This document shows positions 39,951 through 59,090 of a stretch of DNA of 64,000 nucleotides, one piece after another. Every line of letters begins with the position of its first letter. Position 1 is the stretch's first letter. Source of the stretch: Armatimonadota bacterium. Lineage in GTDB: Bacteria; Armatimonadota; Fimbriimonadia; Fimbriimonadales; Fimbriimonadaceae. The position numbers and the translations under genes were made by a program. The notes under the pieces were generated by a model that worked only from the letters and a program-made list of their open reading frames with translations, was not told the origin of the DNA and made no database searches. The stretch covers positions 1,178,001 through 1,242,000 of the forward strand of contig WGMG01000006.1 of assembly GCA_016125185.1 (NCBI GenBank), given 5' to 3'.

Positions 39951-40094
39951 CCAAGAGTCCGCCTCAACCCAAAGTTCTTTTTCAACAACCGATCTCTTAA
40001 CCTTGGCATAACACTTGCAGATGAGATACCATGACAAGCCACTCGTCGTTTTATCGGCGAGGGAAAATACGGTCCATTCGGAGTACCAAAAACA

Positions 40095-40961
40095 ATGAAG
40101 TTTAAACAGGGCTTTACTCTCATCGAATTACTGGTCGTGATCGCCATCATTGCGATTCTCGCCGCCATCCTTTTCCCGGTCTTCGCCCAGGCAAAAGCTG
40201 CCGCCAAGAAAGCGGCTACTCTTAGCAACCTCAAGCAGAATGCCACTGCGGTTGCCATTTACCAGGCCGATCACGACGACAACTTCGCCCAAAGCGCCTA
40301 CTGCGCCGTCAACTGTGCGGCCAACGGCCAACCGACCATCGGCTCCCAACTCTTTACCGTCTACGATGCGCTGATGCCGTACACCAAGAACCGAGACATC
40401 ATCCAGGACGTTGCCGAGCCGAAGGCGATCGACTTCCCCGATTTCCTCTCGACCGTCGGCATGCTGCCTTATCTGAACGGCGCGACCTCGCTAGCCACCG
40501 CCACCAACTACATCCGCTACGCCGGCCTCGTTCCCAACTTCGCCGTGTTCGAAGATCCGGGCATCGGCGGCACCGATGACGGCGTTATCAACGGCACCAG
40601 TCTTGACCTCCCCGCCGACACCATCATGTTCGCCTGCGGCAAGATGGTCAAGCCCGGCACCATGAACAAGGACGTCCCCACCGTCGCCACCGCTGGCCTC
40701 CAAGAGCGCATCCGCGTCAAATACCTCGTCAACGCGGTCGGACTCGGCGGCGAAGGCTTCCCCGGCGTCGCCCGTCACAGCGGTCAAATCCTGCTCAACT
40801 TTGCCGATACTCACGCAAAGACGTTCAAGAGCAACGCGGTTCTCAACACCACCGCACCGGACATTCCTCGCTACGGCGGCGCAAACACCACCGAGCGCGT
40901 CTACAACCTGCCGTTCGACATCAACGGCATCCCGAACATCCTCGCCGAGCCGGGCCTCTAA
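40095..40961 (+). CDS. DUF1559-type prepilin-like protein
   Basis: 288 residues. Short leader [33 protein letters not shown], cut by prepilin peptidase after Gly, with Glu +5. The body is a globular beta-rich domain. Near the C-terminus [16 protein letters not shown] is a variant of the H-X9-DG motif, with DT in place of DG. Such proteins are numerous in Armatimonadota and Planctomycetes and serve as pseudopilins of unclear use. Upstream, TTGGCA and TACCAT at 17-nt spacing may be its promoter. It ends at a good terminator and stands alone. Confidence 0.88.
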
Positions 40962-56489: not shown

Positions 56490-57044
56490 ATGGTTGCGCT
56501 GATCCTCATCATTGTCATTCTTCTCGTCATCCTCTTCGGATGTATCGGAATCTATAACAGCCTCGTCGCCCTGCGGCGCGACTGCGACAATGCCCTCAGT
56601 CAGATCGACGTTCAGCTAAAGCGTCGCTACGACCTCATTCCGAACCTCGTCGAGACCGTCAAAGGCTACATGAAGTTCGAGTCCGAGACGCTCGAAAAGG
56701 TCATCCAGGCCCGCAACCTCGCCCTCGGCGCAAAGTCAGTGGGCGAAAAGTCCGCCGCCGACGCCCAGGTCACCACTGCTCTCAACGGCTTCTTTGCCGT
56801 CGCTGAGTCCTACCCCGACCTCAAGTCCAGCGCCAATATGCTCTCGCTCCAAGAAGAGCTGAAGACCACGGAGAACAAGGTGTCCTTCGCCCGCCAATAT
56901 TACAATGACGTGGTCACCCGTCTTAACACAAAAATCGAGCAGTTCCCGTCCTCGATCTTTGCTGGAATGGGAGGCTTCAAAGCCAAGGAACTCTTCGAAC
57001 TCGATGAGCCTGAAGCTAGGCAGGCCGTCAAGGTCCAATTCTAA
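56490..57044 (+). CDS. lemA: LemA family protein
   Basis: 184 residues. An N-terminal membrane helix (ALILIIVILLVILFGCIGIYN) anchors a long helical domain: LRRDCDNALSQIDVQLKRRYDLIPNLVETVKGYM is the family signature; NKVSFARQYYNDVVTRLNTKIEQFPSSIFA is the second. LemA proteins have an outward or periplasmic helical bundle; their molecular role is poorly defined. The usual partner htpX or a TPM-domain gene is not next to it. Confidence 0.95.
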   Translation: MVALILIIVILLVILFGCIGIYNSLVALRRDCDNALSQIDVQLKRRYDLIPNLVETVKGYMKFESETLEKVIQARNLALGAKSVGEKSAADAQVTTALNGFFAVAESYPDLKSSANMLSLQEELKTTENKVSFARQYYNDVVTRLNTKIEQFPSSIFAGMGGFKAKELFELDEPEARQAVKVQF

Positions 57045-57091: not shown

Positions 57092-57126
57092 TGTTAAGAA
57101 GATGTTAAGTTAACTTTGCCTTAACA
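57092..57126 (+). promoter_or_regulatory. 35-bp palindromic array of four TTAAC half-sites
   Basis: Two 17-bp boxes in opposite orientation meet at 57109: TTAACA-N5-TTAACA on the minus strand (57092-57108) and TTAACT-N5-TTAACA on the plus strand (57110-57126). Each has an 11-nt period, the layout of OmpR/PhoP-type sites. The array ends 22 nt before the start of the pseudopilin gene at 57149, overlapping its expected core promoter. Confidence 0.6.
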
Positions 57127-57148
57127 TGGGAAAAAGCATCATTTGCCC

Positions 57149-58037: not shown

Positions 58038-58069
58038 GAAAACGTCCCTCAAATTCGAGGGGCGTTTTC
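58038..58069 (+). terminator. Intrinsic terminator after pseudopilin A
   Basis: 13-bp stem GAAAACGTCCCTC/GAGGGGCGTTTTC (one G-U pair) with a 6-nt loop, ending in TTTTC. It isolates paralogue A from paralogue B. Confidence 0.88.
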
Positions 58070-58147: not shown

Positions 58148-58204
58148 CTTAACAATCGGGGTTCAGCGAAGTTAAGAGGGGCCGTTAATAACCCTCCCTT
58201 AACA
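58148..58204 (+). promoter_or_regulatory. TTAAC half-sites upstream of pseudopilin B
   Basis: CTTAACA at 58148-58154 and 58198-58204, with inverted GTTAAG at 58171-58176 and GTTAAT at 58184-58189. The same half-site as upstream of paralogue A, but with looser spacing (13 nt between the inverted pair). It ends 22 nt before ATG 58227, as in A. Confidence 0.45.
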
Positions 58205-58226: not shown

Positions 58227-59090
58227 ATGCGAAGAGCGTTTACCCTAATCGAACTTCTAGTGGTTATTGCCATTATCGCGATTCTCGCTGCCATCCTCTT
58301 CCCGGTGTTCGCCCAGGCGAAAGAAGCCGCGAAGAAGACTGCTTGCCTTAGCAACGACAAGCAGATGGCCACCGCCCTGTACATGTACGCCAGCGACAAT
58401 GACGACACCCTTTGTCAAACCAGTTGGGAGAAGGACGCAGACCATCCGTTCCAGGCCCACTGGTCCTTTCTCATGCAGCCGTACATCAAAAGCTTCGACA
58501 TGTTCAGGTGCCCGTCCGACCCCAATCCGGTCAAGCCTCGCTACCCATGCGCCTCCAACGCCGATCTCGGCAAGATGCCGATGACCTGCGATTGGATCCC
58601 CGTCGGTGGCTACTCTTACATCCCGAATTACAACGCCATGCCCGCCCACGACTGGCTCCCGGTCAACATGACCGCCTTCGCCTACCCGGCTACCACAATC
58701 CTTGTGACCGAAAAGCGAGACACCGGTAGCGCCAAAGACGCTCACAAGGGCCTCAGCGGCTTCCTCCCGTCGCAGCCGTGCCCAAACTGGACCTTCGCGC
58801 CGTATTCCGGCCGCATCCCACCGGCGAACACCTACACCTACACCGATGCCCAATTGGTCAAGGATGCAAACCTCAGCGGAACCGCCGCCGACTACAAACA
58901 GGTCGACGTCACCCGCGTAGCTTGGGACCGCCACTCCGGCAAGAAATGGGAAGGCGGAGCGAACTACTCTTTCGCCGATGGCCATGCAAAGTTCCAAAAG
59001 CTGGAGCAGACATTGAATCCGTCCAACTACGAGTACGGCGAGCAATGGTATCCCAACTCTGCCCCCTGGAACTCCGACCCCTGTAACTAA
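58227..59090 (+). CDS. DUF1559-type prepilin-like protein, paralogue B
   Basis: 287 residues. Leader [32 protein letters not shown], with Ala before the predicted cut. It is collinear with paralogue A over its full length, including [42 protein letters not shown] and the C-terminal [22 protein letters not shown]. Differences are scattered point changes, several conservative. The two genes are direct tandem duplicates 214 bp apart, each with its own upstream TTAAC sites. A role as surface or minor pilins is inferred from the leader. Confidence 0.9.

Follow-up and report, generated by a model that had tools for sequence, protein, structure and literature searches.

A 35-bp array of TTAAC half-sites upstream of a DUF1559 pseudopilin gene is probably a Pho box, an operator for an OmpR-family response regulator of the PhoB/RegX3 type, and we would put the probability of this reading at about 0.8. 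The assignment is based upon the sharing of the motif with pstS and other phosphate genes, upon a spacing to TANNNT that resembles the geometry of E. coli PhoB, and upon a half-site with 3-bp linkers like that of cyanobacterial SphR. The array lies in a 64,000-nt stretch of a Fimbriimonadaceae genome related to Fimbriimonas (hereafter, the window), and we regard it as a well-supported predicted Pho box in a new setting, in which pilins would form a major class of targets.

Phased half-sites upstream of two paralogous pilin genes

The preliminary description of the window reported a palindrome of four half-sites ahead of a pseudopilin, and inspection of the sequence confirms it in every particular, including the distance to the start codon (Table 1). 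The left and right pairs are separated by a single base, 57109, and by a count made by eye 13 of 17 positions pair between the two 17-nt arms. The outer frame, GTTAAG-N21-CTTAAC, occurs exactly at just two places in the 4.52-Mb genome, namely before the pilin gene (pilin A) and before its neighbouring paralog (pilin B). Family models place both an N-terminal methylation motif and DUF1559 in pilin A, with TIGR02532 also matching; its predicted structural model has a mean pLDDT of 62.3, with the N-terminal helix alone confident, and matches from a sequence search of the PDB fall in the pilin N-terminal region. Given the likely terminator hairpin that follows pilin A, pilin B probably has its own promoter. 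Neither gene has TANNNT at an offset of 10 nt from the box, the only candidates being CATCAT and CAGCAT at an offset of 11, and use of CATCAT as the -10 element of pilin A would give a leaderless mRNA.

Table 1. Features of the window around the array, with positions in the 64,000-nt stretch
Feature	Position	Strand	Details
35-bp array, two TTAAC-N6-TTAAC pairs head to head	57092-57126		from sequence; 22 nt before ATG 57149 of DUF1559 pseudopilin
Left half-site pair, inverted relative to gene	57092..57108	-	TTAACA-TCTTC-TTAACA; CTTAAC-N5-CTTAAC exact at 57093-57109
Right half-site pair, toward pilin A; proposed Pho box	57110..57126	+	TTAACT-TTGCC-TTAACA; kept in nearest orthologs
Weak candidate -10, CATCAT	57137..57142	+	11 nt past box, 6 nt before ATG; usual offset elsewhere 10
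Pilin A, 287 aa	57149..58012	+	N_methyl + DUF1559 (PF07963, PF07596)
Stable hairpin 3' of pilin A, likely terminator	58038..58069	+	folding against shuffles, z -3.86
Second array, GTTAAG-N21-CTTAAC, before pilin B	58171..58203	.	identical 33-bp outer frame; 23 nt from TTAAC to ATG as at pilin A
Pilin B, 287 aa, paralog 88% identical to pilin A	58227..59090	+	translation, family search
LemA-family gene upstream of array	56490..57044	+	family search; visibly similar gene precedes pilin in two relatives
Imperfect pair TTAACCTTGGCATAAC, no more than a weak candidate, ahead of a further pilin-type gene with its ATG near 40095	39997..40012	+	one-mismatch scan

Within the window, TTAAC-N6-TTAAC with at most one mismatch is found nine times against 0.84 expected, a number reached in none of 100 shuffles. 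A genome-wide scan for pairs, as the preliminary description had proposed, gave a modest excess of exact pairs over the reversed pattern (7 versus 3). Three pilin genes account for four of these pairs, none of them further than about 105 nt ahead of the start. Of the remaining three, one is found before pstS, one precedes a calcineurin-like phosphoesterase gene by 43 nt and is itself divergent to a glyoxalase-like gene, and one lies between a DUF1003 gene and a TIGR04222 gene. When the spacing was left free, exact TTAAC...TTAAC pairs in the genome peaked at periods of 11 (7), 21 (7) and 22 (5) among 54 rows. In two species a box lies beside a gene for a TIGR04222 membrane protein and points away from it (L003, at G000:C6:910839, and L219 in G009, where the gene was assigned by visible similarity).

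The box marks a small part of a large pilin complement. This one 4.5-Mb genome (G000) gave 69 pilin-type N-terminal matches, and PMC4072686 reports 79 PulG-type genes in F. ginsengisoli. Most of the other pilins of the genome are without a box: among the 66 tested (for the remaining three no start was found), a TTAA pair at N7 precedes three, pilin A and two others, and one further gene has a pair at N18. Two of its pilins, L036 (C2:337694) and L055 (C8:36901), carry upstream TTGAC-type direct repeats with an 11-nt period, perhaps a related operator variant.

Conservation in relatives and occurrence at phosphate genes

The preliminary description had made its reading depend on conservation in related genomes, and the phased repeats are indeed widely kept. 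In a search of this genome and 100 relatives, pilin A was found at E <= 1e-80 in 17 genomes, its own included. Upstream of the 16 orthologs outside the window's genome (the two rows from that genome being excluded), 11 have TTAA pairs at a period of 11 or 22, against a shuffle mean of 0.22, and five have no such pair; in the spectrum of spacings in pilin A upstream regions, N7 (17 pairs) and N18 (9 pairs) stand out as maxima. The family is a tight one, with at least 44% identity when the first 40 residues are left out, and the best other pilins of the genome match pilin A at 27% over 233 and 28% over 141 residues, with higher values over short stretches only. Direct repeats with an 11-nt period, as expected of a Pho box or other PhoB-type operator, are thus found both at the array and at its orthologs.

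In three species, that of the window and the relatives G009 and G002, an exact TTAAC-N6-TTAAC pair ends 22-23 nt before the ATG, with differing spacers and flanks. The loci in G009 and G002 are apparently those of the closest named records carrying the pilin, one from a MAG of an uncultured Fimbriimonas, at 91% identity, and one from an Armatimonadetes MAG, at 85%, and in both a LemA-like gene, recognized by visible similarity, is kept upstream of the pilin. The likely lemA terminator in these two genomes (L114, L115) is made of CCTTAAC/TTAAGG half-sites, so that one stretch may act as both terminator and operator.

The head-to-head palindrome stressed in the preliminary description is present, and its frame recurs in three species, but it is not essential, since many pilin A orthologs have direct repeats on the gene strand only. 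Among 18 pilin A-family loci, two of them from the window's genome, the outer frame is exact at four, which represent three species, and a fifth locus departs from it by a single mismatch. At 88 exact boxes from the survey described below, extra inverted half-sites reach a maximum of three at any single offset; there was no strong offset preference, and head-to-head spacing as a general rule was rejected. Because the frame is exact in the pilin A promoters of only three species and is not general among boxes, the emphasis placed on the palindrome is justified only in part. The strict head-to-head dyad is a peculiarity of certain members of the pilin A family.

A motif-first survey gave 172 exact CTTAAC-N5-CTTAAC sites in the 101 genomes, against 37 for a reversed control; in the window's genus alone the excess was modest (41 versus 22). 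We read the genes around 88 of these sites (30 loci and 58 further ones, four of the first 30 coming from outside the window's family); the unread sites are mostly in order-level relatives, together with three single sites, namely that of pilin A in the window, one at pstS in G095 and one that overlaps L156. The gene in the forward direction is a pilin at 17 of the 88, PstS at 16 and the operon of a PhoB-type regulator at eight, counts that are not independent, as genomes and sites are related and some sites are mutually orthologous. Smaller classes are metallophosphoesterase (3), PstB-like (2), solute-binding-like (2), PhoU (1) and GDPD (1), and at 38 sites the forward gene is unclassified. 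A motif rule identified the 17 pilins, each of which was then checked in its open reading frame; PstS and the other classes were assigned by similarity to classified proteins, with PstB-like and solute-binding-like as looser labels. At the rate found for random positions in the window (1.4%), about 1.3 pilins would be expected among 88, and a second control stretch gave none. A pilin lies in the reverse direction, alone or in addition, at six sites. At three loci (L161, L207, L209) the box is kept beside a DUF7948-type gene, which in L207 and L209 has a MurA-like gene, so identified by eye, on the other side of the box.

The survey also revealed a fixed promoter spacing. TANNNT lies exactly 10 nt past the box at 22 of the 88 sites, and of the remaining offsets between 0 and 25 none accounts for more than five. 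An 11-nt-phased box with TANNNT at a fixed 10 nt is the layout of a PhoB-type activator, though a full TANNNT at this offset is found at just two of the 17 Pho-box pilins.

Phosphate genes carry the same motif. TTAA-N7-TTAA is found upstream of 9 of 15 pstS loci from 14 other genomes, against a shuffle mean of 0.115 and a maximum of 2 in 200 shuffles, with upstream regions taken before the aligned match rather than the start codon; the pstS of the window's genome, which is not among the 15, carries CTTAACattctCTTAAC upstream. The motif stands before pst, phoU and phoB genes in relatives, and before pstS in the window's genome as well, as would be expected of a Pho box. At PhoD the box was present in 3 of 9 genes, all from a different family within the order (a raw count without shuffle control, over the best 9 of 21 matches and with upstream regions taken from the open-frame start). 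It was found at none of 30 S1/P1 nuclease genes, a set comprising every one of the 33 matches for which a locus was available; one of the three thereby excluded is a G007 gene divergent from a Pho-box pilin. At one pst locus, the product of the gene that follows pstS (L189:10420-12438) has 673 aa, which would be long for PstC, and is possibly a PstC-PstA fusion.

Pilin A orthologs are themselves often adjoined by phosphoesterase-like genes. In 6 of the 16 loci outside the window's genome, the pilin is followed after 4-77 nt by a metallophosphoesterase-like (PF00149) ORF; the match is clear in G003, G004, G031 and G060 and weak in G044, and in G006 the ORF is cut by the contig end and falls below the Pfam cut-off. 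In G007 it is the S1/P1 nuclease gene that is divergent from the pilin A ortholog. Taken with the proposed Pho box, these adjoining genes suggest a role in phosphate scavenging.

Candidate regulator, proposed mechanism and alternatives

Based upon the target genes, the TANNNT spacing, the arrays at orthologs and the adjoining phosphoesterase-like ORFs, pilin A is probably a phosphate-starvation gene that is activated rather than blocked. Upon phosphate shortage, a phosphorylated regulator would be expected to dimerize head to tail on the CTTAAC(A) repeats with their 11-nt phasing, to replace the -35 element, and to recruit polymerase to a weak -10 element about 10 nt further on. Pilin A would be switched on in this way, and pilin B separately, while the inverted second pair probably offers a further dimer site and so increases occupancy. 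The pilin family, in turn, probably serves phosphate scavenging, for example through the export, display or release of phosphoesterases.

The genome encodes ten OmpR-type response regulators, of which L178 (G000:C2:133770) is the likely candidate. Its best NCBIfam model is PhoB (TIGR02154, E 3.6e-74), at a score of 248.9 bits that is below the curated cut-off of 296.2, and its best match in the PDB is mycobacterial RegX3, which responds to phosphate. Its orthologs, which share 57-59% identity with it against no more than 41% for the next best, are encoded in box-headed operons of G024 and G034. Where the box heads an operon through an RnfC_N-like gene, a similar PhoB-type regulator follows at seven of eight sites, and at the eighth it was not found within the stretch examined. 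TTAA-N7-TTAA was not found at the PhoB-type operon of the window's genome, and no sensor kinase was evident beside the PhoB-type regulator in the stretches read. The regulator shares one operon with an RnfC_N/biotin-lipoyl-like protein (62% identity between this genome and G024) at L190:5765-7791 (G000:C2), L191:1649-3435 and L192:4709-6501.

Another OmpR-family protein, WalR/YycF-like or specific to pilins, could instead bind the pilin arrays, their likeness to a Pho box reflecting common family ancestry. Ten such regulators are available, pilins form a large class of their own (17 of 88), and the left pair also fits the WalR-type consensus, TGTWAH-N5-TGTWAH. Yet an identical, exact 12-base motif precedes pstS, phoU, PstB-like genes, the PhoB-type operon and pilins, and phosphoesterase-like genes often adjoin the pilin A orthologs, and we consider a separate regulator unlikely. 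The preliminary description had seen in the 11-nt period an operator of the OmpR/PhoP type; this was right, and it can now be specified as a probable Pho box, with the same motif found in relatives before pstS, phoU, PstB-like genes, the PhoB-type regulator operon and phosphoesterases.

Whether the bound protein would block or recruit polymerase had been left undecided there, and here recruitment appears the likelier outcome. An operator through which occupancy over the promoter shuts off the pilin would fit the closeness of the array to the start and the weak, off-spaced -10 elements of pilins A and B, but the fixed TANNNT spacing is an activator layout and a PhoB-type regulator would be expected to induce pstS genes rather than repress them, which makes repression improbable. 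An RNA element, with the palindrome acting as a lemA terminator or leader hairpin, is far less probable again: just upstream of the box, G009 and G002 do have a CTTAAC/GTTAAG inverted repeat with a T-run behind it (z -2.56 for the folded G009 sequence), but the window has no T-run, its array folds no better than shuffles (z -0.79), on which ground the hairpin reading was rejected for the window, and what the nearest orthologs retain is a direct repeat. The small raw excess in the genome (7 versus 3) might even be taken to indicate a chance AT-rich repeat, a reading that is barely credible in view of the identical frame at the paralog, the conservation at orthologs, the fixed 11-nt phase and the fixed promoter spacing of the motif class.

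Relation to known systems and implications

The Bacillus subtilis PhoP box, TTAACA-N5-TTAACA, equals the window's motif in half-site and spacing and differs in phylum; pseudopilins are not known to be among its targets. In Pseudomonas, the Hxc type II secretion system (T2SS) serves secretion under phosphate starvation. In Caulobacter, PMC2996285 links ElpS and the T2SS to extracellular phosphatase activity under phosphate starvation. In both of these, a pilin-type secretion machine is tied to extracellular phosphatase through the whole T2SS or its product, whereas here it is pilin subunits that carry the box.

The cyanobacterial SphR Pho box is given in PMC1906773 as CTTAACCT, in at least three tandem repeats with 3-bp linkers. 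It resembles the present array in its half-site core, CTTAAC, in its 11-nt period and in having pst genes among its targets. The present motif differs in belonging to another phylum, in that two repeats were the unit searched, in having pilins as frequent targets, and in the head-to-head pairing at the window locus; the word 'pili' is absent from the main text of that paper. The same paper describes the E. coli PhoB box as two 8-bp direct repeats with a 3-bp linker, 10 bp upstream of TAN3T/A, so that the geometry of repeats and -10 element is shared and the half-site, CTGTACTA in E. coli, is different.

An earlier report of a Pho box at pilins was not found in the open-access literature, a scope that excludes most subscription journals, and within the same scope nothing was found pairing 'Pho regulon' or phosphate starvation with 'pseudopilin'. 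Judged by titles and the beginnings of abstracts, the papers found there on Armatimonads, phosphate and the Pho regulon do not deal with such a box. Such absence is weak evidence of novelty.

The survey provides a DNA-level definition of a predicted phosphate regulon in Armatimonadota, in which pilins rank with the genes most often targeted. Dozens of pilin-type genes without a known role are carried by genomes of this group, and a nutrient-specific switch on one pilin family would make the role of this multiplicity testable. More speculatively, Fimbriimonadaceae might possess a phosphate-scavenging pilin system, in which a distinct, PhoB-switched DUF1559 family, often encoded beside a phosphoesterase gene, forms a pilus or pseudopilus for exporting, displaying or feeding enzymes that release phosphate, or for capturing what these enzymes produce, with subunits from a pool of about 70 pilins swapped by nutrient status. 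If true, this swapping of pilin subunits would begin to explain the large number of pilins in Fimbriimonadaceae genomes.
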